Positions 23,554 to 57,461 of a stretch of 64,000 nt of DNA are shown here, in pieces. The position numbers and the translations under genes were made by a program. Position 1 is the stretch's first letter; every line of letters starts with the position of its first letter. The stretch lies in NCBI GenBank assembly GCA_026770025.1, contig JAMXDE010000081.1, positions 1 through 64,000 of the forward strand. The letters are read 5' to 3'. The stretch comes from Craspedostauros australis. Its lineage: Eukaryota; Bacillariophyta; Bacillariophyceae; Mastogloiales; Achnanthaceae. The notes under the pieces are model-generated. The model saw nothing but the letters and a program-made list of their open reading frames with translations. It ran no database searches and was not told the DNA's origin.

Positions 23554-25398
23554 ATGTCGCAGAGGTCACTTTCTGTAAACAGCAACGTCTTGCGAATGCC
23601 CTGGAACTGTTCCTGTGCCTCTCCGAACCCATTTCCACCACAACAACGCACACACGTCTTTCAAAACGGGAACCGCGACCGACAACAAATCACACAACAA
23701 CAACAGCAACAACAAGAAATCCGGCAAACGACATCATCCTCTCCCAGTCTCATAAATTCATCCACCGACCAACCAATCAATCAATCACCTTCCAAACACA
23801 GCAACCACAACAACCACAGCAACCACAACGCAACAACGCAACAACACACAACGATGATGTCCATCTACCAGCTCTGCAACCCTGACCTTGACATGATGAA
23901 CGCTGCCATCAACAGTGAGACCAACAGCAACAGCGATTTCTCCAAAAACGGCACTGCTCACAAAATGACCAACAACAGCAGCAAAAACAAAGCAAACAAC
24001 GCAAACAAAGAAAACAAGCGCACGTTCAACGCGATGCAATCAAACGCACCAAGCCACACACACCGCGACACTCGTAGCAATACCACCACCAGCAAAGACA
24101 ACACGGACAGCAGCGATGGCACCGCGTCGACGACATCGCTCGAGCCACGGCCAATCGGATCGAGCTACGTTCAGGTGGTGGATTCGGTTGTTCCGCAGTA
24201 CACCTTCAGCGCTGCCAACAGGCACCATATCGATGAGGTCAACACCTTCCTTTATCACATCTTCAGCATCGATCAGCAACAAACGAAGAAGCAGCAACAT
24301 CAGAAGATGGTGAAGCAGCGCACCGACGTGCGCGATATCAACAACAACCACAGCCATGTCAACCATGATATTGATGTCACGTCAAGCTCACAATCGACAG
24401 CTGATCGATTCCTCGGCAACAACAGCACTGCATTTGATGCCACAAGCAATGGAATGATGGCTGACGCGCCACCCACCAAGCAAAGGAAGCTGAGCCACCC
24501 ATCGATGATGACATCGTCCAAGTCTGTCTTTGCCGATTTCGAATGGCAGGATGATCGGCAAGCCGATCATCAGTCTCAAGCCCAAACGCGAAGGCAAAGG
24601 CAGATGCAAAGCAATGAGGTCGAGATTGATATGGGTGGCTGCGACGGCAACGGCAACGACAATGGCAACCGCATCCAACGCCAAGCATGCCATACCGCCA
24701 ACACCAATACCGACACCAGTACAAGTACAAGTACAAACATCGATGCTATCATCGACACAGACATCGTGTGGGAGGACTATCCAGCCATGACATCGCGCAG
24801 CTCAGGAAGCAACACTCAGGCACTCGCAACCGCAACCGCAACCGAAGCTACTTCCGCATCCACATCCGCATCCACGCCCATCAAGTTCCGAAAATACCAG
24901 GCCAACCAATGGGAACAGCGGTACCATGAGCTCGTCCAGTACCAAAAGCAGCACGGGCACTGCCTCGTCGATCCAAACGACAGCAAAACGCTCTCGCACT
25001 GGATCAAGCGACAGCGCTTCCAGTACAAGCAGAAGATGGATGGCAACCATTCCACACTCACGGATGGCAGGCAGAGCAAGTTGCAGGCGCTCGGCTTCGT
25101 GTGGGACACTCATGAGGCCGCTTGGGAGTTCCATTTCCGAGAGCTCATCGACTTTCAGAAGGCGACAGGGCACACGAATGTCCCCACTCAGTATGCGCCG
25201 AACCCGCCGCTCGGTATCTGGGTGAAGGGACAGCGCCGGCAATATCGGTTGCATTCAATTGGCAAGAAGTCGACACTGACCGCCGTGCGTGTCGAGCGCC
25301 TGAATGCGATGGGCTTCGTCTGGGCCATCCGCGCATCTCGCATGACTCGTTCATCATCTGGCTCGTCTGGATCTTCCAAGTCGTCGGGATCGTCGTAA
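23554..25398 (+). CDS. Double HA-domain protein, alpha subfamily, gene 1
   Basis: 614 residues from ATG at 23554. An in-frame ATG pair at 23854/23857 (MMSIYQL) may be the true start, since the preceding 300 bases are Gln/Asn-coding CA-rich sequence like the untranslated leaders of alpha2 and alpha3. Residues 1-440 are low-complexity (Asn, Gln, Ser, Thr) apart from a segment around residues 208-235 (VVDSVVPQYTF ... HHIDEVNTFLYHIF) recognisable in the other alpha genes. Two helicase-associated domains follow, about 451-515 (WEQRYHELVQYQKQHGHC, LSHWIKRQRFQYK, LGFVWD) and 522-588 (LIDFQKATGHTNVP, IWVKGQRRQYRLH). The tail is Ser/Gly. HA domains are three-helix, probably nucleic-acid-binding modules; no helicase motor is present. 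A DNA- or RNA-binding regulator is an inference. Confidence 0.85.
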   Translation: MSQRSLSVNSNVLRMPWNCSCASPNPFPPQQRTHVFQNGNRDRQQITQQQQQQQEIRQTTSSSPSLINSSTDQPINQSPSKHSNHNNHSNHNATTQQHTTMMSIYQLCNPDLDMMNAAINSETNSNSDFSKNGTAHKMTNNSSKNKANNANKENKRTFNAMQSNAPSHTHRDTRSNTTTSKDNTDSSDGTASTTSLEPRPIGSSYVQVVDSVVPQYTFSAANRHHIDEVNTFLYHIFSIDQQQTKKQQHQKMVKQRTDVRDINNNHSHVNHDIDVTSSSQSTADRFLGNNSTAFDATSNGMMADAPPTKQRKLSHPSMMTSSKSVFADFEWQDDRQADHQSQAQTRRQRQMQSNEVEIDMGGCDGNGNDNGNRIQRQACHTANTNTDTSTSTSTNIDAIIDTDIVWEDYPAMTSRSSGSNTQALATATATEATSASTSASTPIKFRKYQANQWEQRYHELVQYQKQHGHCLVDPNDSKTLSHWIKRQRFQYKQKMDGNHSTLTDGRQSKLQALGFVWDTHEAAWEFHFRELIDFQKATGHTNVPTQYAPNPPLGIWVKGQRRQYRLHSIGKKSTLTAVRVERLNAMGFVWAIRASRMTRSSSGSSGSSKSSGSS

Positions 25399-26152
25399 AG
25401 CAACCGCTGAAGTGGCATTCCCATGTCGCTGGCGCTTGCGCTGACGGCGGCTGTGGCGGGCGACGATGACACCGGCACCTACACCGACACAACACAGCAG
25501 AACGGTGACCATGTCCGAGTACACAATGGATTCAGACGTATGCAGACACATCCAGATACTCTACTCGACACTCTATATAGAACATCAATTTTGATTTTCT
25601 CCTCTCACTTGTCCACACAATCAAACGCGAGTGTAGACACTCATACACACAAGCGCATCTGTATGGTATACATATGCCGCACGTGGACGATCACAGAGCG
25701 TAGCCTGTCCGGTACCTGTGCTGCTATCGCCATCGTTACGTCGAGGTGCCGTGAATCAGCTGCGGCGCCATGCTGCAGGTACCCTAATTTATCTTCAGCT
25801 CCTCTCTCTTCTCCTCTCCTTCCATCTCGTCTCGATCTCCGCACTGCCGCACCCTCGCTCCGCGTTCCTTCATTTCGATCGGAGCTGGTCCGCCCGTTCT
25901 CTCGTCGCTTGGCTCTGCCTCAATCTGCGGCGGATCCCTGGGTGATCCAACGGCAGACTTGCAGCAGAGCTCAGATGGGTTTGCGCTGGGTTGAGGCCAC
26001 AGCGCAGCAGCCACAACTCCGTGCCAGCTCACACGAGCACTCGTGGTCGTGCCGTTTTGCGGAGAAGAATGGAGGTGGAAGGAGGAAAGCCAAACTCGCT
26101 TTTGGGACGTGGATTCGCCATTCGCTTGTCGCTTTGTCCTCTTTGTTCGTTC

Positions 26153-26198
<46 letters not shown>

Positions 26199-26221
26199 GG
26201 TGGTGGTGGTGGTGGTGGTGA
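26153..26221. repeat. Microsatellite (GTT)n then (GGT)n
   Basis: About 69 bp of perfect GTT triplets changing to GGT triplets near 26183. Confidence 0.9.
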
Positions 26222-27885
26222 TCCATCCGTTTAGTAGGTGGGAAACAGTCCACAGGATCTGCAAAAGGGACAGAAGGTTCACTTCGCCGGAGAAGGTCTT
26301 CTGTCTGCGTCATGTTTGTCGACAAGAACCACCGAGTTCGGCCACGTTTCAAGTTTCTGTTGTTCCCTTCTCGTTCGTTCCTGTTCGCATCCGTCCTTGT
26401 GCTCCCACGTTCGTACATGTCTGTGTGGTGTTGTGGCTTGCAGCTTCATGTCTGTGCAAGTACTGGTACGCACTCGCACATACTTGTACCGTACGTGTCT
26501 GCGAGCAAACTGATGCGAAGTTGCCCCGCACAAGACCACAAATAGGAGAGAATGTCCGATCGCGGATTTCTGAGTTTGGGGACAAGTTGTGATGCAGTTT
26601 GGGGACCAACAACACTGTCCCCATCACCACGTGCCATACCCGCATACTCAGTGGTAGCGACCGTAATCTAAGCTAATCACAAACGACGAACTGTTCTCCA
26701 TGTGTGACAGAGAGCGCAAGTAAGAGTGACCTGCAAGCGACGAACACTCGTATGTGCAATGGAGTCCACTGGAGCAACAAGGATAACTGTAGACCAGAGA
26801 ACATGGGATGCCATGGAGTTCAACGAGAGTGGAGGGAACCTGACCTCGAATCGAGTCGAGTGAAGTGGTGTAGACGAGTACTGCACGTTTGCTTGTCGAA
26901 GACTTGGAGTTGAGCAGAGTATCATCTCCGTGAGAGTACCTGTTGCTGTCGTTCTTGTCATTGCTGTGGCGGTCATTCGAGTTGGCAAGAGTGCGATTTG
27001 CAGCACATTGCAATTTCCGAGAGAAGAACGTCGACCAATCCACGGCATCTGCATTCATCTGAGAAGACACCTGCCTCTTGGGGTGGCTGATGTGAGAACA
27101 TCATCGACGACCGCCGTGTCCGCAGACGTGAGCATCGTCATCATTCTACAGACATCAGAAAGGGGACCTGCAGCTTCAGCTCCAGACCCAACCTCAGACT
27201 TGTGTCCAGACCCAAGCGCATCGGAGAGATCTCTTTGGTGGAGAAAGAGAAGGAGGACGAAGAGAAGGACGAAGAGAACGATGAAGAGACGAGACCCGAA
27301 ACAGCGGAGATGCGCGCAGACACATTGTTTCTGTTCACCTCTTGCAGTTCGGGTTGGATCATTGGCTTGATGCTTTCCACGTCCCACAACAGCGTGTCGA
27401 CAACAACGCTAGCAACAGCAGTGAGGCCGCACAGTATCTGCAAAGCGATGAACCCGGGTTGTGTTGTCTGGAATCTATCGGTCGAATAGTTGTTCGTGTC
27501 ACTCCGATGACGAACGGCGTTGTGTCCGTACTACAACTCTTCGATGTTCTCCTCATGCGCAGGTGCAGCACTTGTATTGCAGTGGATTGCAGTTGGTCGT
27601 TTTGTTTCGCATTGTATTTGATTTCTACCTTTCGCTGGTATTACACTTATGACGATGCGTCACATGACCCCCAACACTTAATACCCAACACGGCATCGGG
27701 GCAACGTGGCATAAACAGAACCCTCATGTGACGTGGCGAATGGTAGCATCATCCTTCACACACGCAACCACAACCACGTACATTCTCGTACCGCGAAAAA
27801 ATACACACACACGATACGAGCACGAAGCACAACGGAGTTTTTGTGTGGCACAAAGGCCACTGCCGCCTTTCTCCCTGTTTCACCG

Positions 27886-27930
27886 ATCACAGAACCATCA
27901 CAGAACCATCACAGAACCACCACAGGACAA
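27886..27930. repeat. Short tandem repeat in the alpha2 leader
   Basis: Four near-copies of ATCACAGAACC in a row, the last altered to ACCACAGG, within a G-poor, CA-rich leader 260 bases before the alpha2 start codon. Confidence 0.75.
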
Positions 27931-28188
27931 CACAACAAGAGATCTCACAAAAAGACCCTCACCACAGGATTCTCACAATTTACAGACACATCACAGCATC
28001 ACATCATCACATCACACCAAAACAGATCGCCACATCGGACCACCACGCACAACTAATCACGTACTCACAATCGGCAACACCACGATTGCACCAGTATCCT
28101 GATCTTCCTGTCTCGTGACCGTGAAGACATGACCAAATACAGCATTGCTGTCAACACCATCAAGCAGAACAAGTGAACGAACTCCAGC

Positions 28189-29799
28189 ATGGATGGCATG
28201 ATGATCGGTGCAGTGGGCGACGGCGTGGTGGATATCAACATCGGTATCGCAACATATCCAAACATCACTATGGACCTCGCTCTCGGCCGTGGTTCTCGAT
28301 CTGGTATCGATATCGACGCCGACGTCGACACCAACACCGGCCCAACCAACAGCAGTGCAGTCGGCAGCAACCCATTGGAACCAGCGCCCATCGGCTGCAA
28401 TTCCACCCGAGTGGTCCACTCCGTGGGGCTCATGGACACTTTCGCGAATCATGACCGCCATCATATCCAAGATATCCACCAGGTCCTCCGCCCATTTGAT
28501 TGCTCCCAGCATCACACCGATGAGCCACCACAGCATGAGTGCGATTGGGAGAGGCATTTCGAGTGCTCCATTTCAGCATCAACAATCGATGCGGATTTGG
28601 AGACGACGGAAATCACAAGTAGGAGCGGACGCCAACGCGAGAGCGAGGTTGATATCCTATGCGCTATCATGGAGAGAGAGTCTATCAACGAAGCGGTCGG
28701 CATGGATGCGGCGCACGATTTCGCTGGTGTGAGAGAACTCCTGGACGACTTCGGAGACTTCGATGACGAACTCAATGGAGACTTCGATGGAGGATTCGAT
28801 GATGCATTGCTCCCTCATGCACGTGGCAGAAATCGTGGCGATACCAACAACGCTGACACCGTCGGTATCATCGACTTCGACATCGACATCGGCAGCATTT
28901 ATGACACCAACCAATCTGTGACGAAGCACATGACGCCACATCAACACACGTCCACCGCAGTGCTTGAGATGTGCCGTCAACCAAACATGGAACCACATGC
29001 TGCAACGACTGCTGCTGCTCAATGCATTTGGACTTCACCGCGAATAGGATCGTCGATCACAGCACCAGCGGCGGTAGCCACAACAATGACGCACAGATCG
29101 CAGGCGAAGATAAGAGCAAGGACAGCCACAAGGCCGAAGACCAAAACGAGGGCCGCCAAGAACGTTTCCAAGACACCTCGAACAACCAAACACGCTCCGG
29201 GCAATGGCAGCAGCGGTATCAACGGCAGCAACAATAGCAACGGCAAGAACCTCGTCAAGTTCCGGCACTATCAGTCCAGCCAATGGAGCGTCAAGTACCA
29301 ACAGCTCGTTCGCTTCCACAGGCAGCACAATCACTGCCTCGTCGAAGCGAAGGACGACAAGACTCTCTTTCACTGGGTCAAGCGCCAACGATGCCAGTAC
29401 AAGCAGAAGCAGGAGGGGCGTCACTCCACTCTCACTGATGAACGACAAGGAAAGCTGCGGCAGCTCGGCTTTGTGTGGGACTCTCACGATGAGGCCTGGG
29501 AGAGGCGGTTCAGCGATCTCATGCTGTACAAGGCAAAGCACGGCCACACGAATGTTCCCACGATGTACAGCGACAATCCTTCGTTGGGAATCTGGGCAAA
29601 GAGTCAACGCCGTCAGTACCGGCTGCATTGCAACGGGCAGAAGTCCACGATGACCACCAAACGCATGGATCGACTGAATGCGGTTGGCTTTCCGTGGATG
29701 GTGCGTCCTACGCCGATGGGAGCCATCAAGGAGACATTTGGGTCAGCTGTTGTCGGCGATCTGGTGGGTTTGTATGGGACTGTCGGACAGGCAAGGTAG
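28189..29799 (+). CDS. Double HA-domain protein, alpha subfamily, gene 2
   Basis: 536 residues from ATG at 28189; the preceding leader has no other in-frame ATG that extends the match. The N-terminal half is acidic and varied (DDFGDFDDELNGDFDGGFDD near residue 185) and holds the subfamily segment RVVHSVGLMDTF...HHIQDIHQVL (about residues 70-95). A basic stretch (about 300-360) precedes the HA domains at about 364-428 (WSVKYQQLVRFHRQHNHC, FHWVKRQRCQYKQK, LGFVWD) and 436-502 (YKAKHGHTNVPT, IWAKSQRRQYRLH). No helicase domain is seen. It lies 2.8 kb after alpha1 and 2.1 kb before alpha3, all on one strand, as expected for tandem duplication. A role as a nucleic-acid-binding regulator is inferred from the domain only. 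Confidence 0.88.
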   Translation: MDGMMIGAVGDGVVDINIGIATYPNITMDLALGRGSRSGIDIDADVDTNTGPTNSSAVGSNPLEPAPIGCNSTRVVHSVGLMDTFANHDRHHIQDIHQVLRPFDCSQHHTDEPPQHECDWERHFECSISASTIDADLETTEITSRSGRQRESEVDILCAIMERESINEAVGMDAAHDFAGVRELLDDFGDFDDELNGDFDGGFDDALLPHARGRNRGDTNNADTVGIIDFDIDIGSIYDTNQSVTKHMTPHQHTSTAVLEMCRQPNMEPHAATTAAAQCIWTSPRIGSSITAPAAVATTMTHRSQAKIRARTATRPKTKTRAAKNVSKTPRTTKHAPGNGSSGINGSNNSNGKNLVKFRHYQSSQWSVKYQQLVRFHRQHNHCLVEAKDDKTLFHWVKRQRCQYKQKQEGRHSTLTDERQGKLRQLGFVWDSHDEAWERRFSDLMLYKAKHGHTNVPTMYSDNPSLGIWAKSQRRQYRLHCNGQKSTMTTKRMDRLNAVGFPWMVRPTPMGAIKETFGSAVVGDLVGLYGTVGQAR

Positions 29800-31931
29800 G
29801 CACGGAGTCGACGAGCTGATCAACTGGCCAGCGCATGCATACATGCATGTATGTACATGACCACAGCAACACGAATACATATTATACATAACGAAGTAAC
29901 GACATAGCACTGCATAAATTCATGGAATAGAGTATTCGTGTACTAGAGTGGAGTTGAGTGGAGTTGAGCGGAGTACGTAGAGTGGATGCGTCGATACTTG
30001 CGCAGGGATTGTGAGACTGGTTAGGGTAGTCCATGAATGCTGGTGAGGCGGAGAGATGAACAGGTCCAGGTAATACACGCGCCACGCGACCCGTCTGTAA
30101 CCCATTGCGGTGGCGTGAATACGATGGTGACGATGGGATGGGATAGGATCAAGGGAGGTCGCACAGTATCGCACACTCAACAACGGCGATGTAGTGTGGC
30201 GCTATATCGCATTGCGCGTGGAACGGGGCGTGGCTATGCACCAGGTCGAATCGCACCGCACCGCATTGCATCGCATCACATTGCATCGCACCGTCAAGTA
30301 CCACATTGCACGTCACTGCACAGATTCAGAACGGCTGGCGAATCTGCGGTGTTTTTTTGCGTTGCATTTCGGATGTGGGCACTGCGGTTATCGAGATTCA
30401 TTCTTCTGTTCATGATCTCGATGGGATGTCGATGCCACCGTCAGTGAATAGTAGAGGATGGCCGCTTCACACCCTGCGAAAAGTTGACCGCGATACGCAA
30501 CCACCCCACTCGTTCTCATCGGATCCATCAACGGTGGAAATTATCGGCGGTAGTGTCACTATCATCGGTAACTCTTTGCGTATTCCATTCCGCTGCTATC
30601 GATGCCGATGCTGATGCCGACGTTGAACTGCCGCCCATCAGGATCTTGCTCCCATTCCTACTCTGCCCCGTCGTCGTATGCCACAACCACCATCGAGGAA
30701 ATGCGATGCTGCGATGTTGCATTTCTGACCGCTGTCTGCGTCCACTCTGTTGCCGTCGGTTGGATTGACACGCTGATGCCAGTACGAGTAGAATGTCGAC
30801 CGCCATCGTTGGCTGCACGTCGCTTGTGCGCATGTTGGATTCGCCCCATGCTTTCGCGCCGCATCGTAAGATCCATGGCATTACGTTGCATCCCATTGCG
30901 TCTCATCCCGTCGCGTTGCGGTGCTTGTTCGGGCGTCTTTCCACCCATCTCAAAATGTGAGGGAAAGTCATTTTCGAGGCGGAAATGGACCTTGGTGAAA
31001 GAAAGTGGTTTACGGGATCGGAGTTGGCGAGACACGCAACAACGCCGCAAAGTAGGGTTCTGGTTGGGTTCGGCGGGGACTGCGTGGTTGTGGGACTGTG
31101 TTGATACGTCAGATTGTGTTGTGAGGTGTCGCGGATGTTCGCAATCGTTATGTAATTCGATGCGTGGAACACAAAGAACATACTCAGAGCAGATCAAGAC
31201 GTGCAGAAGGCACTCCCAACGGAGATATCGAAGGTAGATGATGTTCGCCGGGCGGGGATCGGGTAGAGTTCGGGTTGCAGTTGGTGGCTTTGTTGTGTGT
31301 AATTTCGCCGTCGTGTTGAGGTTGCTAAATGTTGAACACGTCTGAAGAGCAGATGGGTCATTGCGTTAAATATGATGTTGTCACATCGGACGATTTGTAT
31401 GTTCTTTGGTTGCGTTTAGAGTAGTCCAATGAATCATGTGTGTCGTTCCCGTGCTTCATTTATCCGAGTTCGTTGTTGCGAAGTCGGTTCTGAGATGTTG
31501 GTTTGTTCGTTGATCCGTGTTGTGCGTTGGTGTGTGATGTGTGATGTGTGATGTGTGTGATGGGCGGTCGTGCGAGTGCGAGTAAGAGCAAAAATACGCA
31601 GATTGATTGACGTGACTGGGGTCGCTTCCACATTTTGTGGGTCTGGTCACGTCGATCACAACCTGCTTTGGGCAGATGCCTCTGACACCTTCATGCTCAC
31701 AATTTCAAATCCATCCGGATCCAAATCCAGCCCACAACCACACACAATCACCCGCAAGCGCACTCCCCTATCGCTCACAGTCACGTAAGAAGCTCATCAG
31801 AACTGCACAGCGAAAACCAGAAGCGAAAGCAGAAAGTCGAAAACCGAGCAACCGCCAATTCCATCCACCCGACCTGCACCAACCCACATCAACCAACAGC
31901 AATCCACATCAACGACGACAACAACGCCGCC
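29800..31931. other. Gene-poor spacer between HA-alpha2 and HA-alpha3
   Basis: 2.1 kb without a supported gene. It contains a GAGTGGAGTT repeat (about 29945-29975), a CGCACCGCATTGCAT-type repeat (about 30250-30295) and a TGTGATG run (31530-31561). The last 250 bases are CA-rich leader sequence of alpha3. An AT-rich patch (CATATTATACATA) lies about 80 bases after the alpha2 stop. Confidence 0.5.
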
Positions 31932-33287
31932 ATGATGATGTTCACACCAACTTCCACACAATACAAGCACAGCAACACCATAGTCACCACATCCGACAAC
32001 GATGTCTTCTTTCCAGTCGACAGCGCAACCATGACGATGAACATGACCACCGCCATGAACATGAACGGCATGGTGCGCAACCAGAAGAGGAAATCCCATC
32101 ATGATCACGATGAGGATGTCGGCCCGGATCCCATCCAGTACACAGGAATGCGCATCGTCAACGAGGTTCGATTGGAGGACACGTTCGGCCAATGCCGCAA
32201 CTCCAACGCCAACGCAGAAATCGGCGCCACCAAGGACAACGACTGCACGTGCGACGCTTCGTGCGGTTCGGCAGTCCCGATGCATGAAGTCGAGACCTTC
32301 CTGCGATCGCTGTTCCGAGAAGACGCGTACCACCGCAGTCCCGCATCCGTTGCAACCGACGGGTCAACCAACACCAGCGCTCCACAAGGTCGAAGCGTCC
32401 ACGTCGAATGCAACGACGAGCCGATTGACGCATTCACTGATGTCCGTCATTTCTTGGTGGACATGGAGGCGGGTGTCAACAGCAATGCCAGCAACAGCAA
32501 CAGCAGTGCCGAGATCAGCGGTAGCATCAGCAACAGCGGAAACGACCATTGCCACGACGGCGACGCGAGTCTGATCGGATTCCATGCCGACATGGACATG
32601 TTCAATTCCCATCATTCCTTGCTGTGCTCCACATCTGCACCATCGGCGACTTCGATGACTTCGATGACATCCCCACCTCCATCCAAGATACGAAGAGTGA
32701 TCAGCGACACGAGAATCTCGCCGACGTCCACCAAGGCCGCACCCTTTGCACCATTTCACAACCATCACAACGCAGCATCACCAATCAAGTTCCGCAAGTA
32801 CCAAGCTGACCAGTGGGAGGCACGATACCACGAGCTCATCCAGTACCGCGAGACGCACGGCCATTGCCTCGTCGATTCCAACACGGACCGCACCCTGTCC
32901 CACTGGATCAAGCGACAGCGTTGCCAGTACAAGCTGAAGCAGGACGGCAATCACACCACGCTGACCGACGAACGGCAGAGCAAGCTGGAGTCCCTGGGTT
33001 TCGTGTGGGATTCGCACGAGGTTGCCTGGGAGTACCGGTACCAGGACCTGCTCGCCTTCAAGGCCAGAACCGGTCACACCAACGTGCCCACGGTGTACAG
33101 CAACAACCCGTCGCTGGGCATCTGGGTGAAGGGACAGCGGCGGCAGTACCGCCTGCACAGCAGCGGGCAACGATCCACGCTGACGGCGAAGAGGATCAAC
33201 CGGCTGCGCGACGTCGACTTCCAGTGGGTGTCACCATCCATGGTGAACCGCGCGCCGTTCCCCACACGAGTCGGCCTCGCAGCGTGA
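31932..33287 (+). CDS. Double HA-domain protein, alpha subfamily, gene 3
   Basis: 451 residues starting MMMFTPTSTQ at 31932, following a long CA-rich leader. The N-terminal region carries the alpha segment IVNEVRLEDTF (about residues 75-85) and, farther on, MHEVETFLRSLF (about 116-127), a variant of the same block in alpha1 with a Cys-containing insert. An Asn/Ser stretch follows. The HA domains are at about 293-357 (WEARYHELIQYRETHGHC, LSHWIKRQRCQYKLK, LGFVWD) and 364-430 (LLAFKARTGHTNVP, IWVKGQRRQYRLH). The domains resemble alpha1 more than alpha2. The G/C content of the domain-coding part is visibly higher than in the leader. Confidence 0.88.
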   Translation: MMMFTPTSTQYKHSNTIVTTSDNDVFFPVDSATMTMNMTTAMNMNGMVRNQKRKSHHDHDEDVGPDPIQYTGMRIVNEVRLEDTFGQCRNSNANAEIGATKDNDCTCDASCGSAVPMHEVETFLRSLFREDAYHRSPASVATDGSTNTSAPQGRSVHVECNDEPIDAFTDVRHFLVDMEAGVNSNASNSNSSAEISGSISNSGNDHCHDGDASLIGFHADMDMFNSHHSLLCSTSAPSATSMTSMTSPPPSKIRRVISDTRISPTSTKAAPFAPFHNHHNAASPIKFRKYQADQWEARYHELIQYRETHGHCLVDSNTDRTLSHWIKRQRCQYKLKQDGNHTTLTDERQSKLESLGFVWDSHEVAWEYRYQDLLAFKARTGHTNVPTVYSNNPSLGIWVKGQRRQYRLHSSGQRSTLTAKRINRLRDVDFQWVSPSMVNRAPFPTRVGLAA

Positions 33288-40366: not shown

Positions 40367-42190
40367 CTAGAGAGCCAAGGCTGGAGCCTCCGGGCTGTGC
40401 GACGATCTCACCTCCCGAGGCGTCCACACGAAACCCATCTGCGACAGCTTCGAGATGCGCTCATCGTTCAGGTTCGACTTCTTGCCGGCGCGATGCAGCT
40501 TGTACTGACGGCGCTGGCACTTCACCCAGATCGCCAGCGACTGATTCTCACCGTACTTCGATGGGACGTTGCAGTGGCCGTACTGGCACTTGAAGCCGTT
40601 CAGCTGTCGGAACCTCTCCTCCCATGCGGCGCGGTGGGAGTCCCAGCAGAAGGTGAGATCCTCCAACATCTGCTGGCGTTCCGCAGTGAGGGTGGAATGG
40701 GTGCCCGCCACCTTGGCCTTGTACTGGCACCGTTGGCGTTTCACCCAGTGGGCGAGGGATGGGTTGGCCTTGTAATCGAGCGGGACGAGGCTGTGTCCGT
40801 GCTGCTGCACGAAGTGGAGGAGCTCCTTGTACTTGCCCATCCACTTCTGTGTGTTGGAGGCACCGAAGCGCTGTTCTTGTTGTGCGCTGCCATGGTTCTG
40901 GCTGTGGCTGTGCCTGTAGCTGCGGTTGCAGTTGGTTCGACGGTTGAGTTTCTGTTGCTGTTGTTGGTGCTGTTGTTGGTGCTGTTGCTGTGGGATGAAC
41001 TCATTCGTCAATGACAGTGGCAACGACAGTGATGGTGGCATGGAGGCGCACACTGATGCAGATGCTGACGCAGATCCTGATGCCGACATCTGGGATGGTG
41101 CGGGTGATGTTGGTTGCGAGACCTGTGGGGGTGGTGTGAAGCGTGTGAATAGAAGTAAAGTGAAGTACCATGCAGCGAAGTATATTGAAGCGATGGAATA
41201 CAACGTGAGATGAAGAAATGAAGAAGCGCGCTCAACCAACATCACCATCCATACGAGTACTCTCCATACTACCGAAATCGAGACGGATCAATCACAACTT
41301 ACTGTTCGTTGAGTATCGATGGCATGCTGGTAGGTCGATGACGTTGCTGGAGCTCGTTGGTTGATGGTTGGAGCATTGGAGTCGACAAGATCGGCCTGGA
41401 AGTCATTGCTGATACCATTGATGCCACTCATGCTAGTGCTGTTGATGCCACCAATGACACCAATGCCACTGAGTCCATTGAACCCATTCAAGCCATTGAG
41501 TCCGCTCAAGCCATTGAGGCCGCCCAATCCGTTCAACCCGTGAAGCCCATTGAGGGCACCAAAGCCGTTCATACCGTTCATACCGTCCCATCCATGGATT
41601 CCGTTGATGTTGTTGGTGCTGTTGATGCCATTAAAGCCACTGAGGCCATTGGTGGTGGGCAGTCCAGGCGTTCTCGGTGCTGTTCCAGCTCCAGCTCCAG
41701 GTGCAGCACCGCCAAACACGGACATTGTCAATGATAGGCCGCTGTTGGTGGATGCCTTGGCGAATGACTCGAAGCTTCGCATGGCGAAATTGTTGTGTGA
41801 TGGAAGCCGTGACTGCTGCAGCTGCTGTTGGGCCTGGAAGGCATCCAAGCCGAGGCTGAGGTTGGCGTTGCCGTTGCCGTTGGCACAGGCATCTGGGCTG
41901 AAGGCTGCGGCCCTAGCAGGTGCTGCTGCTGTTGTTCCAGGCATGCCACCGTTCAGTTGAGCGTTGAATGCATCGAGCGCTTGAGCGGAAATGTCTACAC
42001 CAGACAGGCTGCTGTTGTGCAAGCCCGACCAACAATCGGCGTTGGAGTTTGCGTTTGGTTGGACGTCGCAGGTGCGACTATCGGTTGCGAAGTTGACCAT
42101 CTTGCCTTTGGTTTGGTTGGACGTTGGAGGCGCAGATGCAGTGGCTGCTGTTTGTTTGGGATTGATAGAAAGTGAGTCTCCAGAAATCAT
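40367..42190 (-). CDS. Double HA-domain protein, beta subfamily, gene 1 (two exons)
   Basis: Exon 1 is 42190-41303 and exon 2 is 41122-40367, with a 180-bp phase-0 intron (GTAAGT donor, CCCCACAG acceptor) giving 547 residues. The splice is supported because reading through ends at once (TVSCD stop) while exon 2 has no good start and because the paralogue at 55.6 kb has the same sites. Exon 1 (MISGDSLSINPKQ) is Ala/Gly/Asn-rich and ends in a long Gly-Leu-Asn repeat (LNGLHGLNGLGGLNGLSG). Exon 2 has a Gln/Asn tract, then HA domains at about 390-455 (WMGKYKELLHFVQQHGHS, LAHWVKRQRCQYKAK, FCWDSHRAAWE) and 462-530 (CQYGHCNVPSKYGENQS, IWVKCQRRQYKLH). It is an inverted, near-identical copy of beta3; the two diverge only at both protein ends. 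Confidence 0.9.
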
Positions 42191-47067: not shown

Positions 47068-48268
47068 ATGGTGACATCCAAACGAATGTCCGCGGAGGAA
47101 AAGCGGAAGGTGATCATGGGGTGAGTGATGCGAAGGGGCTGATTTCGTGCTTGTCTCGAGAGCGCTCTCAAGTGTAGTACAGTCGGAGCCAGTAAAACAC
47201 AATCGTGAACTTCCACATCAGCGCTGGTAACAAGTCATCGCCTCTTTCGCCAGGCGCACTTGCGCATCCATGCACACGCCAAAGAGCACACCCGCAGACG
47301 ATAACTGTGGATGCTCCATGCACGCGCTCTCGTGCTCCTGAGAGGAGAGCAGCTGTTTTGGCACACGCAGCCAGCGGGAAGTCGGAAATTCGTGCCGACA
47401 CATCAAACTCACCCAGTTCTTGGCCTTCTCAATAATGCCATACCATGCCACGCACTGTATTGTGTTGCATTGTATTGCATTGTATTGCATTGCATTACAC
47501 GACAAATTCCGAACTCATCATCACAGTATCTACCACGAGACTGGTCAGGTGTACATCGAAAAGGAGGTACTTGCCTTGGCGATCAAAGCCGGTGTCAGCG
47601 GCAGCGCCGTCGCCGACGTCCACCAGGCGCTCGTGGACGAAGGGCTCATCTGCAAGGAGAAGATTGGCGGCAGCAACTACTTTTGGGCGTTCGCCGGCAT
47701 CAAGGAATGGCGGGCCGTCACTCGGCACGATCAGACCTTGCGAGGCATCGATGAGATCAACGAGAAGATCGAACAGACAAAGATGAAGCTGGTACAGGCG
47801 CGGATGGAACGCCAGGAGACCGACGTGGTCATGTCAGAGACGAAAGCAGATGCTGACGCCGACGCGATGTGCGACGACAAGAACACAATGGCAGGAGATC
47901 GCAGCAAGGAGAACACAAAGTCAAGCGGCGATAAACAGCAGCCGCCACAGAGGGATGCTGCCAACGGGCCAACCACTGCCGCAACTGCGACAAGATCCGG
48001 CAGACTTGCCGAGCTCGGCGAGATCAAGAAGCAGAAAGAGACGCTGCTCAAGGAGATCGAGGTGATGGCGGAGAATGATCCAGCCGCGTTGGCGGATCTC
48101 GAAGAGCAACTCAAGATCACCACCAACGCAGCGCACCGTTGGACCGACAACATCTTCGAATGCAAGTCGTACATGGTCAAAAAGAGAGGAGTGGACAAGA
48201 AGGAGGCCTGCAAGATGATTGGCATCACCAGCGCATTCGATTGTAAGTGTTCATCGTCGCGTTTCTGA
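47068..48268 (+). CDS. MND1: Meiotic nuclear division protein 1 (MND1)
   Basis: Exon 1 is 47068-47120 (MVTSKRMSAEEKRKVIM) and exon 2 starts at 47527. A 406-bp intron (GTGAGT donor, CATCACAG acceptor) joins them within a Gly codon to give KVIMGIYHETGQVY, matching the MND1 N-terminus. Exon 2 contains the winged-helix start (VYIEKEVLALA, LVDEGLICKEKIGGSNYFWA), a coiled coil (IDEINEKIEQTKMKLVQARM), an acidic Ala/Asp-rich insert not usual in MND1, and the signature WTDNIFECKSYMVKKRGV with KKEACKMIGI. MND1 pairs with HOP2 and helps RAD51/DMC1 invade the homologous chromosome in meiosis. Read through, exon 2 ends at 48268 (264 residues). A GTAAGT at 48243, right after FD, may start a last intron, so the final ten residues are unsure. 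Confidence 0.9.
47456..47500. repeat. Simple repeat inside the MND1 intron
   Basis: TGTATTGCAT repeated about four times just upstream of the intron's 3' splice site; the complementary direction reads as ATGCAATAC. Confidence 0.75.
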
Positions 48269-48849
48269 AGTGATGGAGTTTTCTACTCGTACGAGTATGT
48301 GTGGTGGTTGTTGGTGATTGTTTTGGGGCTGCTCAGTTTGCGACTCCGTTGCGCGGCCTTTCGTTCAAGTAGCTACCCATGACAAACCGACACAAACCGA
48401 GACGTCAAGAATGAAAATGAATGCATCTAAAGGTGCAGCGCTGTCTTATTTCGATCTCGTTCACGAGGCCACTGGGTGTATTCTGTTCCACTCCGCTCTC
48501 TCCTCACACACGCCTCGATCCCCGCCACGCAATGCAATCCCACACAACATATTCCGAACGCACACAACACACCAACATCCGCGCAATCGCCATCCAGACC
48601 CAAGCTCCGCATAGCACAAGCTCACATGTCGCATTCCGCAATGTGCATCAAATGCTATTACGCCATTCAAATAACGAAGCTTTAGAATGAACAGCTAGTC
48701 ACCCAGTCCGTCAAGCCATTCTAATCCAAAACTTAACCCAGCGTTCACGCCGACCAAAAGTACCTACGACATCGCGGAGCATCATTTGCGTATGTGCATT
48801 CTAGTTGGACAGCGATGAACCTACTCTGGAGTATGGAAACTCGATCGAA
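48269..48849. other. Spacer between convergent MND1 and CRAL-TRIO genes
   Basis: 580 bp between facing stop codons. It may contain a last short MND1 exon (a candidate acceptor CTCAG at 48332-48336). Nothing else seen. Confidence 0.4.
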
Positions 48850-50505
48850 TCACTGTTTCTTCGCCCCTCGGCTTGTGGTGCTGCCGTTTTCATCTTTCAA
48901 GTCTGCCGATGTTTGGGTCGATTTGCGCGCCAAATTGCGAAACCCCATAGCGATCTTGCCCCGTGCCTTCTTGCTGGACACCTCCCGCCACAGCCCATCC
49001 TTGTGCCGCTGAATGAACCGCGAACCTTCTGCCTTGAACTGGCATAGCAACCGCTCCGAGAATGCCGTCTTCGCAGAACGGTCCGACACAACGATCGATT
49101 GGTATTGGGACAGATTCTCCTCCAGCGTCCGAATGAAATTCAGGTTGCCTGGGAAGAATTGCTGGACAGCACTCCTCCCCAGCAGAATGTCGTTGCTTCT
49201 GGGAACGGGGAGGCCCGGAGCGCTGTCCGGGCTGTCAGCTTTCGCCAGTTCAGCTGATACTATTTCCCGCAGTTCATCCTCTTCGATCATCCTCCGTCCT
49301 TCCAGCGCCCAGAGTTCCCCCATGCGTTGCTGGAAGAGGCCCGCCTTTAACGTCCCCTCCGAATCCAACGGAAACGACTTGCTCGAGATCCCAAACGAGT
49401 TGAGGATGTACTGGCATTCCACATGAGAGCCAAGATGGAGTCGGCACCTCGACGACACTTCCTTCGGTGCTGCGAGGACCAGCAGGGAGAACAGACGCTT
49501 CATCATGATGTTGTCGAAGCAAAAATGAGCGGCGGTGACCCGCATCGGGATGACGTCGAAGAGCAAGGTGCGTGCTTCGCGTATCAGCTCGCGGTTGGCA
49601 TCCGCGACGGAGATGTCGATCGGGTATGTGACAGGCACAGCACCGCGTCTGTGAGATTCGTCACTCAGGCGCTCGATGCATTGCATGGAGATGTACCAGA
49701 TGGCCGACGCTAGGCAATCATCCGTGCGCACCGTCTGCAGTCGGTATTTGTACAAATTTACCACAAGGCATCGCCCCACGCTGTCGGTGCAGTCTGGGAA
49801 CATCTGAAAGCAGCCGGCTATCAAAGCCTCCTGCACATCCGGTTTGAGGTCGTTCCAGCACAGCTTGCGTCCGAGGCAACCCAATCCGAACAATGCCAGC
49901 TTCTTCTTGAAATGCAAGACCAGCCTTTCGGCCGCCTTCTGCGGTTGGAAAGATTCGGCTCGCAGGAATTGCAAACGGAACTTGCGATCCTCCACATAAG
50001 TTTGCGAAAGGAAGTGCGCTTGCTTGTATGGCTCCTTCGCGGAAATGTTCTCGATGCATGTATCGAGTTGATCGAGCTTCGAGTTGACAAAGTCTGCTGT
50101 CTCTTCGATGACGCTCCCGACGCCATGGATCTCCTCATAGATCTCCGTTCGTTCCTTGACTGACAAACTCTTGAAGTCTTCCACCAGCCTCTGCTCTGCG
50201 GAAGATACGATCTTTTCATCCTGATCGACGCCACGGAACCATCTGGGTTGATGCCGGCAGTTACTTTGCCGCGGATACCTGTCGTGAGAACGGTGGAGTT
50301 GTTGCGAGTTCGAAAGACGTCCAGTTGCACACTCGCTGCCCACCATGCACGGAGCAAAGCATCCGGCGATTGATCCGCTGTTGCCGCAGCCCAAGGTTAG
50401 GTCCCCCGAGCTTGATGAAGAGGACACGGATGCCGATATCGATGTCGACGATGAGGTTACGGTTGCTGCGTCCTGATTCCAGCTGCCTGGAAATGATCTC
50501 TTCAT
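48850..50505 (-). CDS. CRAL-TRIO (SEC14-like) protein with C-terminal DUF6824-type block
   Basis: 551 residues from ATG at 50505 (MKRSFPGSWNQD). The frame is open to 51075, but the added 190 residues look non-coding and include a TATA-like stretch, so the later start is preferred. After a Ser-rich leader, residues about 105-130 (VKERTEIYEEIHGV) and 190-210 (AAERLVLHFKKKLALFG) look like the helical region before a CRAL-TRIO domain. About 310-400 carries its lipid-binding fold (LLFDVIPMRVTAAHFCFDN, FSLLVLAAPKEVSSRCRLHL). SNDILLGRSAVQQFFPGNLN (about 438) then opens a block of roughly 90 residues matching the N-D-V-L-x-G-R...H-P-G-N pattern of DUF6824; here H is replaced by F. Lipid binding or transfer is inferred; what the second block does is unknown. 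Confidence 0.8.
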   Translation of the reverse strand: MKRSFPGSWNQDAATVTSSSTSISASVSSSSSSGDLTLGCGNSGSIAGCFAPCMVGSECATGRLSNSQQLHRSHDRYPRQSNCRHQPRWFRGVDQDEKIVSSAEQRLVEDFKSLSVKERTEIYEEIHGVGSVIEETADFVNSKLDQLDTCIENISAKEPYKQAHFLSQTYVEDRKFRLQFLRAESFQPQKAAERLVLHFKKKLALFGLGCLGRKLCWNDLKPDVQEALIAGCFQMFPDCTDSVGRCLVVNLYKYRLQTVRTDDCLASAIWYISMQCIERLSDESHRRGAVPVTYPIDISVADANRELIREARTLLFDVIPMRVTAAHFCFDNIMMKRLFSLLVLAAPKEVSSRCRLHLGSHVECQYILNSFGISSKSFPLDSEGTLKAGLFQQRMGELWALEGRRMIEEDELREIVSAELAKADSPDSAPGLPVPRSNDILLGRSAVQQFFPGNLNFIRTLEENLSQYQSIVVSDRSAKTAFSERLLCQFKAEGSRFIQRHKDGLWREVSSKKARGKIAMGFRNLARKSTQTSADLKDENGSTTSRGAKKQ

Positions 50506-51845
50506 GCTGAGTATGATGAGTTCTGCGGCTTCTGCTGGGATTGCGAAGATCCTAATGTTCGTGGACCCGACTCTGTACCCTTCCAACGTATTGGTATGGT
50601 ACCATGTGAGTATTGTGGTATTATATACGGTAAAATGGCAACAGTTCAAGACGAATTTGAATATTGGTCGGCACGGATGGGAGCAGCAAGAGAGATAGTG
50701 AAGCAGAGGCAGCAGACTTGGCTTGCCTGTTTCTGGTGCAGTCGGTATGGTATTAGCGTGGGACGGTATGACACCTGCTCCATCTGCTTCGCTCTTGTGC
50801 CTGTGCGGAATCCTCGGCGAACCGAAGACCGAAGCAACGTTGGTTCCGATGGCAGCACTGGACTTGCACGTGTATGGTACGCTCACTCGCCGAGGGTGGC
50901 CGATGCCAATGGTGATGACAGTGACGACGGTGATGCCGCTGATGTCGCTGATGTTGATAGCAGTTGATTGAAACGCTCTTCCTCTCTGGGGAATGTTCAA
51001 CTTGCTTCGTTCGTCGTGTGCGACTCCTCGATTGTTGCCCTTCTTCCACCTCAACATAGGCCTTTGTGAATCCATATTTTCTCATAAGATGGAGCAAAGA
51101 CGCAATAATTCTCGCCCACAATGACAGCGAGTTGCACTTCCAATATTTGCAAAGACCAAAGGGGCAGTTCGGCTTTCACTGGAGTCGGCATTTCTCCCTC
51201 ACATGTGTCTGATTTCTACTCTGTTGTCTGGCGACGTGTTCTGTACGAAGGTGCCAGATTCGCCTTTGTTAAGCCTCCGGGCTTGCGTTGTTCTTCATCG
51301 CTGCTGTTGAGTATTGCGTTAAATGAGTCAATTCTCTTGTGGTGGTGGCGACCTTCGTGAAAACAGCCTATTGTAGGACGAATGTGTATTACTCCGTTTC
51401 ATATGTGCACGGTCGAGTATCCCTTTGTCCGGCCGCAGAACAATCGCATTCCGGAGCTTCTGTACTTGGTGGGCTTGTTGTTGTATTCTACCTTTCGATT
51501 TGTAGGTTCTTTGATGTTGGCCGCGCGGTGGTGCGCTTGAGTTTTGTGATTTGATGTGATGTGATGTGATGTGGTGTGGTGTGATGTGGTGTGGTGTGGT
51601 GTGGTGTGTTGTGATGTGGTGTGGTGTGGTGTGGTGTGGTGTGGTGTGGTGTGGTGTGATGTGGTGTGAGATGTGATGTGATGTGATTGTGGCTGTGTCT
51701 GGCATGACAGTTGTTGTGTGTTGTGGTGTGGTGTGATACTCTTTCTGTTGTGGTACTCATCCAAAGTGGTTCTTCTCCCCTCACAAAACAAACAACTGGA
51801 CACCATCCATCCATCATTAGAGTACTCCACTGCGAAGCCACCTTC
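50506..51845. other. Divergent promoter region between CRAL-TRIO and HA-beta2 genes
   Basis: 1.3 kb between two start codons pointing away from each other. TATTATATACGG (about 50609-50620) is a candidate TATA-like element for the - strand gene. The right half carries a long GTGRT repeat (51552-51690). No gene supported. Confidence 0.45.
51552..51690. repeat. Pentanucleotide repeat (GTGAT/GTGGT)n
   Basis: About 140 bp of GTGAT and GTGGT units, about 160 bp upstream of the HA-beta2 start codon, giving a strongly G/T-biased + strand. A weaker related run continues to about 51740. Confidence 0.9.
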
Positions 51846-53516
51846 ATGCCTCGGAACAACGCCGATGAAAGAAGAGAGGAGCTAGATCAACAGCACCAGC
51901 ATCAGGAACAGCAGCAGAGACGTAGTCATCAACAAGAGCAGCAACAACAAAGACAACAGCAGCCAGCCCCACCACCACCACTACCGCAGATGGGTATCCC
52001 CGCATTGCCTGGGCTCAGACTCGAAGATAACATTCTCAGCGAGGACTTCGAGCTGGTGAGCTTCGGGCCGCAAGCGACCACTCACGCTCTCGACAATGTC
52101 AATACCAATGCGGGCCGTTCCACAACCATGTCGCCACTCTCCACATTCGACTTCGTCTCTCCGACACTGGTGGGAACGAGCGGGATGAATGGTTGGGGGG
52201 TGATTAATGATTCTCTTCGAAGCGACAATGATACCACGCAAAGCCACACCCATAACCAGCAACAACAGCAACAGAACGGCAGTGACAACGCCAGCCCATC
52301 AGCCATGTTGCCACCTCCACAGCCGTCACAACATTCCGTGGAGGCGGATCGTTTGATGAGAGAGCTGTCAAATATGGATATGGAGCCGACGCCGCTTGCC
52401 CCAGCTCACAAGCTCAACATCGTCAACAACGTGACCCTGCCTCGCTTTCAGCAGAACTTTTGGCATTCCAATCCGCACGCCAGGCTGGATCTGCGAGGCT
52501 TCGTGGACTTCGTTGGTCCTGCTCCATCTCACGATGCTCCTTCGTATCCAACGCAACCACCTCAACGTCACCAATGCCATCACGCCGATACTGGCAACGC
52601 CGTGGAAACGAAACCGACTCCATCGCTATCGGCGGCCGCACCAAAACTATTCGATCATGCTGCATCGGCCAGCGTCCCTATGGAGACACTGTCGCTGATG
52701 CGAGCGCCAGATGATAGTCAGGAGGAGGAGGAAGAAGACAGGAAACCAGCCGCATCCACAGCACAACCACAGACACAGGCACTAGGGCAACCAAACGGCG
52801 CGATCAAGCCCAGCAGACGGGCGGAGATGGAGCTGCAGTCACCCTCCCAGTCCAGATTCGGCATGGTGCAACTCCGCAAGTGGGACAACAAGTACAAGGA
52901 GCTGCAGCAGTTCGCGCAGGTGCACGGGCATGCCGTCGTTCCGCTGGAGTACAAGATCAACCCCACCCTGGCCCATTGGGTCAAGAGGCAACGAGCACAG
53001 TACAAGAAGCTCATGGCGGGGAAGAGGTCATCGATGACCAACGAGCGCGTCCTCTTGTTGGAGAGGATCGGGTTCGTGTGGGATTCGCACCGCGCCAGCT
53101 GGGACGGCAGATGGCACGAGCTCCAGGAGTTCCAGAGACTGCATGGGCATTCGAACGTGCCGTGCAGCCACCCAGCCAATCAGGCACTGTCCATCTGGGT
53201 GAAATGCCAGCGTCGTCAGTTTCGGCTGTACCAGCAGGGACGCAGATCGAACATGACGGAGGAGCGCGTGGGAAGACTGGAGTCGTTGGGCTTTGTCTTC
53301 TCTCCAAGACAGCTAGGCGGGGATGAAAATGCCGATACCAACGCCAATGATGACGACGGTAACAACGATAACAACAGCGTCAGCAACAGCAACGTCAGGG
53401 TCAACAGCCCTCGCGCTGTCAGTGGCAGCAACAAAGAGAGCAACAACATGAACAGAAGAGATGAAGACGACAGAAACGCTGGTGGCAACGTTGACTTTGA
53501 CTACTTCGCTGTTTGA
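51846..53516 (+). CDS. Double HA-domain protein, beta subfamily, gene 2
   Basis: 556 residues from ATG at 51846 (MPRNNADERREELDQQ); the frame extends left to a TTG at 51711 but through the GTGRT repeat flank. Residues 15-45 are Gln/His/Arg-rich. The middle contains short conserved-looking acidic and aromatic segments (LSEDFELVSFG; FDFVSPTLVGTSG; LMRELSNMDMEPTPL) that resemble activation or docking motifs. HA domains lie at about 342-407 (WDNKYKELQQFAQVHGHA, LAHWVKRQRAQYKK, IGFVWDSHRASWD) and 417-485 (LQEFQRLHGHSNVPC, IWVKCQRRQFRLY). LAHWVKRQR and IWVKCQRRQ place it with beta1 and beta3. Unlike those two it has no intron in the corresponding place. The tail is Asn/Asp-rich. Confidence 0.88.
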   Translation: MPRNNADERREELDQQHQHQEQQQRRSHQQEQQQQRQQQPAPPPPLPQMGIPALPGLRLEDNILSEDFELVSFGPQATTHALDNVNTNAGRSTTMSPLSTFDFVSPTLVGTSGMNGWGVINDSLRSDNDTTQSHTHNQQQQQQNGSDNASPSAMLPPPQPSQHSVEADRLMRELSNMDMEPTPLAPAHKLNIVNNVTLPRFQQNFWHSNPHARLDLRGFVDFVGPAPSHDAPSYPTQPPQRHQCHHADTGNAVETKPTPSLSAAAPKLFDHAASASVPMETLSLMRAPDDSQEEEEEDRKPAASTAQPQTQALGQPNGAIKPSRRAEMELQSPSQSRFGMVQLRKWDNKYKELQQFAQVHGHAVVPLEYKINPTLAHWVKRQRAQYKKLMAGKRSSMTNERVLLLERIGFVWDSHRASWDGRWHELQEFQRLHGHSNVPCSHPANQALSIWVKCQRRQFRLYQQGRRSNMTEERVGRLESLGFVFSPRQLGGDENADTNANDDDGNNDNNSVSNSNVRVNSPRAVSGSNKESNNMNRRDEDDRNAGGNVDFDYFAV

Positions 53517-55321: not shown

Positions 55322-55373
55322 GCTCAGCACATCACTATGCCTCCCTCATGGGCTCTCTGGTGATGTGCTGAGC
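55322..55373 (+). other. Perfect 14-bp stem hairpin upstream of HA-beta3
   Basis: GCTCAGCACATCAC (55322-55335) and GTGATGTGCTGAGC (55360-55373) are exact reverse complements separated by 24 bases. The hairpin starts about 30 bases after a good 5' splice site (GTAAGT at 55290) and would be inside a predicted 5' UTR intron (55290-55580, ending CAAACAG). It could be a structured RNA or a small inverted-repeat relic. Confidence 0.5.
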
Positions 55374-55601
55374 GTCTTCGAACCACTGCGGTGACGATAG
55401 AACGTGCCAATGACTGGATCTGCGAGCACTCCTCTGATTCTAACATCGCTTTTATCGGCATTTGCAAATGTCCAATGCTTGCTCCCTTTCTCCCATTCCA
55501 TGTCCACCGCAATGGCTTGCACCTTGGCCGCAGGTCCGACATCAACCAGATCTCTACCGTATAGTGTACCATTCAAACAGCAACAAAGAGCAAGATCGAG
55601 A

Positions 55602-57461
55602 ATGATCAACACGCATCATCAACGACATCGGCAACAAGAAGAATCGCCCTCGCTTCTTCCTTCCGATTCGGCTTCACTGAGCATGGGCGAATCATTCCAA
55701 GTGTCGAAGTCATCATCCTCGTTGCCACCGCTTCGGTCTGCCTACGACGTGGTTCCGGCCGACAGCCCCAACGATGGCTCGTTTGCGATTGGCAGCTTTT
55801 GCGACGTCTTGTCCCAGAATGTAGACATCGGCGCCAGTGGGAGCAATGGCCGCCATCTCGGCCATCTTCTAAGCCAGGCCAACTCAGGCGATGCATCGCT
55901 GGGCGCTTCTAGCGCAGGCCAGGCGGCTGCAGTCTCGAATGGAGGTGCGGTCGGAACCTTCGGCGCCAACCTCAGCCTCGGCTTGGATGCCTTCCAGGCC
56001 CAACAGCAGCTGCAGCAGTCACGGCTTCCATCACACAACAATTTCGCCATGCAAAGCTTCGAGTCATTCGCCAAGGCATCCACCAACAGCGGCCTATCAT
56101 TGACAATGTCCGTGTTTGGCGGTGCTGCGCCTGGAGCTGGAGCTGGAACAGCACCGAGAACGCCTGGACTGCCCACCACCAATGGCCTCAGTGGCTTTAA
56201 TGGCATCAACAGCACCAACAGCATCAACGGAATCCATGGATGGGATGGTATGAACGGTGTGAACAGTATGAACGGCTTTGGTGCCCTCAATGGGCTTCAT
56301 GGGTTGAACGGATTGGGCGGCCTCAATGGCTTGAACGGGCTCAATGGCTTGAATGGGTTCAATGGACTCAGTGGCATTGGTGTCATTGGTGGCATCAGTG
56401 GTATCAGCAATGACTTCCAGGCCGATCTTGTCGACTCCAATGCTCCAACCATCAACCAACGAGCTCCAGCAACGTCGTCGACCTACCAGCATGTCATCGA
56501 TACTCAACGAACAGTAAGTTGTGATTGATCCGTCTCGATTTCGGTAGTATGGAGAGTACTCGTATGGATGATGATGTTGGTTGAGCGCGCTTCTTCATTT
56601 CTTCATCTCACGTTGTATTCCATCGCTTCAATATACTCCACTGTATGGTACTTCACTTTACTTCTATTCACACGCTTCACACCATTGAACGCGCATTTCA
56701 TATGCCATCCACACCACTCCCCACAGGTCTCGCAACCAACATCACCCGCACCATCCCAGATGTCGGCATCTGCATCAGTGTGCGCCTCCATGCCACCATC
56801 GCTGTCGTTGCCGCTGTCATTGACGAATGAGTTCATCCCACAGCAACAGCACCAACAACAGCAGCAACAACAGCAACAGAAACTCAGCCGTCGAACCAAC
56901 TACAACCGCAGCTACAGGCACAGCCAGAGCCAGAACCATGGCAGCGCACAACAAGAACAGCGCTTCGGTGCCTCCAACACACAGAAGTGGATGGGCAAGT
57001 ACAAGGAGCTCCTCCACTTCGTGCAGCAGCACGGACACAGCCTCGTCCCGCTCGATTACAAGGCCAACCCATCCCTCGCCCACTGGGTGAAACGCCAACG
57101 GTGCCAGTACAAGGCCAAGGTGGCGGGCACCCATTCCACCCTCACCGCGGAACGCCAGCAGATGCTGGAGGATCTCACCTTCTGCTGGGACTCCCACCGC
57201 GCCGCATGGGAGGAGAGGTTCCGACAGCTGAACGGCTTCAAGTGCCAGTACGGCCACTGCAACGTCCCATCGAAGTACGGTGAGAATCAGTCGCTGGCGA
57301 TCTGGGTGAAGTGCCAGCGCCGTCAGTACAAGCTGCATCGCGCCGGCAAGAAGTCGAACCTGAACGATGAGCGCATCTCGAAGCTGTCGCAGATGGGTTT
57401 CGTGTGGACGCCTCGGGAGGTGAGATCGTCGCACAGCCCGGCGGCTCCGTCTGTCGTTTAA
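55602..57461 (+). CDS. Double HA-domain protein, beta subfamily, gene 3 (two exons)
   Basis: Exon 1 is 55602-56513 (MINTHHQRHRQQEE) and exon 2 is 56727-57461, with a 213-bp phase-0 intron (GTAAGT / CCCCACAG), giving 548 residues. Earlier in-frame starts (GTG 55404, ATG 55410) would lie in the predicted leader intron. Exon 1 begins Ser-rich with an acidic segment (SAYDVVPADSPNDGSFAIG), then joins the Ala/Gly and Gly-Leu-Asn repeat region shared with beta1. Exon 2 carries a Gln tract and two HA domains at about 385-450 and 460-525, with sequence nearly identical to beta1. From the LSLGLDAFQ segment to the end of HA2 the two genes match at DNA level, including the intron; N- and C-termini differ (this one ends SHSPAAPSVV). 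The relation suggests a recent inverted duplication or gene conversion. Confidence 0.9.

Follow-up and report, generated by a model that had tools for sequence, protein, structure and literature searches.

Tandem HA domains (PF03457) are known from bacterial and plasmid SF2 helicases of Lachnospiraceae, Ruminococcus, Micromonospora and Streptomyces, where four to eight repeats stand beside a motor of the ResIII, DEAD or Helicase_C type; an SF2 motor was fused to HA in six of the seven bacterial proteins that we scanned. The window analyzed here, the first 64 kb of the 121-kb contig JAMXDE010000081.1 (C79) in the Craspedostauros australis assembly (74.8 Mb, 90 contigs), carries six HA genes without these motor domains: a1, a2 and a3 (alpha) and b1, b2 and b3 (beta). 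Compared with typical PF03457 proteins, they have two HA copies, no helicase, more basic domains and a long N-terminal part, where many family members carry a conserved box. We give about an even chance to the reading that these genes belong, as recent additions, to a large, lineage-expanded regulator family whose members are probably nucleic-acid-binding, most likely transcriptional and most likely nuclear. A regulatory role is plausible because the proteins are motor-less, recently duplicating and basic, with a conserved helix. What is new here is the EPxPI...VV box and a set of HA domains that are both basic and under purifying selection.

Anatomy, charge and conservation of the HA pair

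Each of the six window proteins contains two PF03457 stretches in a Pfam scan, with whole-protein E values from 6e-30 to 3e-37 and scores of 103.8 to 127.2 bits (6/6 above the cut-off of 28.4), and no other Pfam family appeared at E<=0.01 in the six open reading frames (ORFs). Helicase families were absent from the examined exons of all six genes (0/6, upstream exons of b1 and b3 included) and of eight further HA members (0/8), whose proteins showed only HA domains, in two to six copies. This bears out the first-pass annotation, which had described two tandem HA domains without a helicase in each gene. No recognized transcription-factor DNA-binding domain of Pfam (HSF, Myb, homeobox, etc.) was found at E<=0.01 in the scanned HA proteins. 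The upstream exons of b1 and b3 matched the Collagen repeat below its cut-off (E 4e-4 and 7e-4; 20.7 and 19.7 versus 27.2 bits), which indicates low complexity. Moreover, an NCBIfam scan of the six proteins yielded a single sub-cutoff match, in b1, and a PHROGs scan yielded none (0/6).

The HA domains of this genome are basic and share a nearly invariant helix of the WVKRQRxQYK type. Their net charge has a median of +5 (mean, 4.9; range, -2 to 11; 94 domains from 47 pairs), versus a median of 0 in bacteria (mean, 0.8; range, -5 to 10; 39 domains from seven proteins, six of them helicases), in a comparison where domains are non-independent and the bacterial set is small (6 of 549 plasmid records plus one of two genome loci). 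Among 47 aligned pairs, helix 2 of the first domain has Q37 in 46 and R38 in all 47, and R111 is present in 46. Charge and the conserved helix support the earlier suggestion that these proteins are probable nucleic-acid binders. Each HA domain was modeled as three helices (predicted local distance difference test [pLDDT], 92 for the single domain; pLDDT 85 and predicted template-modeling score 0.54 for the pair).

Substitution patterns set the HA pair apart from the rest of the protein. Six close paralogue pairs differ in the HA region by 23 synonymous versus 7 replacement changes, and the N-termini of four close pairs differ by 60 versus 94 (Fisher p 2e-4 versus HA). The HA pair is under purifying selection and is more constrained than the N-terminus. 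These counts omit the poorly aligned N-terminus of b2 and its copy (42.8 synonymous and 97.2 replacement changes), as well as the distant pairs b3/b4, L006/L020 and a1/a3.

Measured from the first Met, the N-termini of 45 ORFs have a median length of 365 amino acids (aa), and they are rich in S, A, T, Q and P. Many of them carry the box (L/M)(E/D)PxP(I/L)x6(V/I)VxxV, followed in a wider alpha group by D(T/S)F and then by a short block ending in FLxxVF. The HHI-E/D-V/I block noted earlier for the alpha genes is the tail of a longer conserved block that starts at this box, and a weaker form of the box also occurs in b2. A strict expression, (E/D)PxP(I/L)...(V/I)V, matched 20 of 45 N-termini, including two that belong to near copies of window genes. 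It matched none of the 3372 non-HA ORFs of the fetched loci, and 1000 shuffles gave a mean of 0.022 matches (maximum, 1). A looser expression matched 24/45 N-termini and 3/3372 non-HA ORFs (shuffle mean, 0.14; maximum, 2). These expressions were composed after the sequences had been seen, and leave-one-out detection is the fairer test: a 23-residue profile, built without three near-identical copies, recovered 13 of 16 (the three failures include a3), and one of 43 residues for the wider alpha group recovered 10/10. Within the fetched loci, the box thus appears to be specific to the HA family.

In the mechanism that we propose, the two HA domains would jointly form a bipartite unit for binding nucleic acid, most likely DNA, for which the motor would no longer be needed. 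The N-terminus, which is probably disordered, would serve in activation, repression or the docking of partners via the EPxPI box. Growth of the family would then supply more regulators with one common basic contact helix but with different N-termini and a variable HA surface, a mode resembling that of large transcription-factor families whose contact residues are nearly invariant.

Family size and growth of the array

The genome contains many relatives of the window genes. A PF03457 search (best 150 of 220 candidates scored) gave 151 matches, which we merged by hand to at least 81 loci, and a search with the b3 pair (134/134 candidates scored) returned 58 close double-HA loci at E<=1.6e-26, 55 of which align over 120 or more of the 140 residues of the query. 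C79 and C34 hold eight close loci each and C58 holds six, so that 22 of the 58 lie on 1.5% of the assembly, where 0.9 would be expected; these contigs were picked after the data had been seen, and tandem copies are non-independent. Within 20 kb of another HA locus lie 36 of the 81 loci, versus a mean of 3.2 under random placement and versus 21/105 for HSF (118 matches, merged by hand to 105 loci). By these locus counts and clustering figures, the window and one other array, each with six loci, are the densest, the rest of the family being more scattered. Beyond the window, the array goes on with further double-HA loci at C79:97.0 kb and C79:101.8 kb. The earlier description of a local array therefore holds insofar as six genes cluster here, but with 58 close loci genome-wide, the cluster is no local oddity. 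Repeated loci of a different HA architecture occur at C57:347-374 kb and C72:140-149 kb, with the same or similar HA scores in each.

Other families of this genome are also large. DUF6824, an unnamed family, has at least 150 matches (best 150 of 315 candidates scored), and no paper turned up when the open-access literature was searched for this name or accession. The silicon transporter family (PF03842) has 88 matches, 32 of them near full length (>760 bits), and four of these 32 contain a stop; the count is far above the handful of silicon transporters known from diatoms. Together with the 118 HSF matches, these transporter matches give the genome a diatom-like character.

The window genes, their neighbors and the duplicated segments are listed in Table 1. 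From the reading frame, consensus sites and conservation between copies, b1 and b3 are each predicted to be longer than the single ORF and to consist of two exons. Their phase 0 introns (41302-41123, 180 bp, in b1; 56514-56726, 213 bp, in b3) begin with GTAAGT and end with CACAG, and exon 2 joins in frame to an upstream exon in which NG/LNG repeats abound. The predicted proteins have 547 and 612 aa, respectively, counted from the first Met; the single-ORF starts at 41248 (b1) and 56568 (b3) are intronic. Among the neighbors, Mnd1 has a role in meiosis.

Table 1. HA genes, neighboring genes and duplicated segments of the window
Feature	Coordinates	Strand	Description
a1, alpha gene	23554..25398	+	614 aa; HA pair 24910-25323; EPxPI core ~24139-24207
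a2, alpha gene	28189..29799	+	536 aa; HA pair 29284-29697; EPxPI core ~28375-28443
a3, alpha gene	31932..33287	+	451 aa; HA pair 32814-33227; divergent box PDPI...IV ~32118-32186
b1, beta gene	40367..42190	-	Predicted exons 42190-41303 and 41122-40367; HA pair 40424-40843
b2, beta gene	51846..53516	+	556 aa; HA pair 52881-53300; weaker box MEPTPL...IV ~52380-52448
b3, beta gene	55410..57461	+	Predicted exons 55410-56513 and 56727-57461; HA pair 56988-57407
Alpha trio segment	23324..33287		Inverted second copy at C34:541500-531366; three blocks of 93.8-95.2% identity
b3 stretch, 1.5 kb	55964..57448		Matches b1 41867-40383 at 93.7%; similarity ends abruptly at the 5' edge, inside the gene
Mnd1 gene	47435..48268	+	Mnd1 HTH and LZ3wCH domains; mid-array
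DUF6824 gene	48850..51075	-	Between HA genes
TPR-repeat gene	58110..59735	+	Just beyond the six HA genes

The earlier view that the array is still duplicating is supported, as regards recent duplication, by the copy of the alpha trio on C34 and by the near-identity of b1 and b3. The latter spans the intron as well and suggests a recent copy, a partial copy or gene conversion; partial copying or conversion is suggested because the near-identity stops abruptly within the gene. Furthermore, a partial copy of b2 is present on C58 (97.5% over 1072 bp). We rejected a haplotig or assembly artefact as the source of the C34:531-541 copy, because the tested flanking DNA has no near copy: no other match in the assembly was found for window 34304-40300 or 57500-64000, and only weak ones were found for 43000-51500, every candidate of these searches being scored (1/1, 7/7 and 1/1). 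Similarity lists can miss near copies, as in one search with 38 of 45 candidates scored, which omitted the window itself and the C34:531-541 copy. The end of C34 (670647-679256) aligns to window 23008-31473 with 510 gap openings and 186 mismatches over 8495 columns of the fetched part. Since the gaps are many and small, the substitutions few and the frames broken, as in unpolished reads, this stretch probably represents the same locus, or its allele, at a contig end left unpolished, rather than a third copy. The presence of this segment at the C34 end suggests that C34 and C79 belong together.

A tree of 44 HA pairs, fewer than the 58 loci and without rows L010 and L026, recovers beta as a nine-row clade (support, 97/98) with all rows on C79 or C58. 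The genes a1, a2 and a3 group with C34 genes in a 9-row node (81/73), a 10-row node (92/90) and a 14-row superclade (93/96), and each of them pairs with a C34 gene. Of the two subfamilies proposed by the first-pass annotation, beta is thus recovered with support and alpha only weakly. Some of the motifs assigned to them are family-wide, such as the Q and R of helix 2 and the C of WVKCQRRQ (24/47 pairs). Since the sisterhood of alpha and beta is unsupported, two independently growing groups appear to meet on C79.

A regulatory role weighed against its alternatives

Several observations weigh against a family of transcriptional regulators. The basicity is uneven, with values as high as +8 or +10 in some bacterial HA domains and a charge of -1 in the first HA of a3, and four of the seven HA replacements fall in a2, where there is one synonymous change. 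The strict expression misses the box in 25 of 45 ORFs, and the box was not found in b1 or b3, upstream exons included. Neither for the pair nor for the single domain did Foldseek return a solved structure at E<=0.001, so that kinship with helix-turn-helix proteins is only a possibility; a VIA-align comparison limited to Foldseek's own candidates gave no match to DNA-binding proteins. A k-mer test over 40 upstream stretches against a non-promoter background was at best borderline (best 7-mer p 4.8e-6, 6518 tests) and is composition-prone, and we do not claim a shared upstream motif. The size of DUF6824 argues against any special status of the HA family. Finally, the invariant basic helix could equally fit RNA or non-specific binding. 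Indeed, the charge and the conservation suit any polyanion, disordered N-termini are common in RNA binders, and the DEAD-type motors beside bacterial HA domains favor neither DNA nor RNA. Post-transcriptional regulators, in which the HA pair would bind RNA and the N-terminus would recruit decay or translation factors, are nevertheless unlikely in our view, and a weak pointer to DNA comes from a viral structural relative named T5 Orf172 DNA-binding protein (Foldseek E 0.066). Together with giant-virus helicases, that same T5orf172 name among the structural matches, like the fusion of an SF2 motor in 6/7 bacterial HA proteins, would suit targeting subunits that act in trans, the HA pair still guiding a helicase or nuclease that now has a gene of its own. 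We consider this quite improbable, since dozens of paralogues, divergent in their N-termini, would all depend on a single motor.

The way in which the array grows could also be taken at face value, as a largely neutral expansion in which local duplication and gene conversion add copies but little function. The segmental copies, the homogenization of b1 and b3 and the likewise huge DUF6824 family (at least 150 matches) are consistent with it. We nevertheless regard neutrality as very improbable: reading frames remain open in those near copies that were compared, the HA pairs are under constraint and much of the family has kept the box. Least supported of all is genome defense or transposon control with array growth in an arms race, the link drawn by the first-pass annotation, to which we now attach very little weight. 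The arrays are young, and the alpha genes lie just right of a copia reverse-transcriptase ORF (20507-21889); across the genome, however, HA loci are no nearer to copia reverse transcriptases than HSF loci are (Mann-Whitney p=0.60; best 150 of 1493 candidates), and the HA pair is conserved by purifying selection, not diversifying. PADLOC matched 0/6 window proteins at E<=0.01, which is weak evidence in a eukaryote because its models describe prokaryotic systems. Among the bacterial HA proteins, the helicase L045 matches PADLOC restriction and PbeA models, within residues 67-428, its motor part.

Relation to known HA proteins and to diatom transcription factors

Outside this genome, the W, L, W, R and L positions of PF03457 are shared: they are invariant over 17 aligned diatom-type and bacterial domains. 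Two bacterial genome matches have 31 and 32% identity to the query, and the HA region of one bacterial protein matches 549 plasmid records, 317 of them from Streptomyces. A stand-alone triple-HA protein (L052) is encoded on a Streptomyces plasmid, and a motor-less HA protein is therefore not unique to this genome. Foldseek gave four viral matches in BFVD at E<=0.001 (TMq 0.52-0.59), comprising giant-virus helicases and a siphovirus HA protein; the predicted folds align, but three of the four are named helicases, unlike the window genes. In IMG/VR, a sequence relative was not confirmed with the patterns used; one unannotated phage record came up. Transfer of HA from bacteria or giant viruses is possible. 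A putative helicase, PDB 2kta, matches the first HA by sequence profile (E 7e-5); it is a single short domain and is absent from the Foldseek results for either model. By profile, residues 632-695 of Cas13h1 (PDB 8wce) weakly resemble the HA pair (E 0.15), which may be due to chance. Among the matches listed in the open-access literature, no paper on diatom HA-domain proteins was found; HA2 of DEAH helicases, the subject of PMC12787238, is unrelated.

More speculatively, and with considerable doubt on our side, double-HA proteins may represent an unrecognized class of diatom transcription factors, of the same order in number as HSF. They would stem from an accessory domain of helicases, with the motor lost and charge gained. 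A new cofactor-docking motif, the EPxPI box, would then mark the class, and C34-C79-C58 would form one regulator superlocus growing by segmental copying and gene conversion. If dozens of HA-pair proteins do act in gene regulation, a sizeable part of the diatom regulatory repertoire is missing from surveys that rely on known DNA-binding domains. The basic helix and the EPxPI box offer concrete handles for mutants. In the main text of one such survey of algal transcription factors, HSF is the best-represented family of Phaeodactylum (67 of 196), its expansion is apparently diatom specific, and the word "helicase" does not occur (PMC4827209). The HA expansion described here is of the same order in gene number as that of HSF (58 close double-HA versus 105 HSF loci), but it involves a different domain, and its loci are the more clustered of the two.

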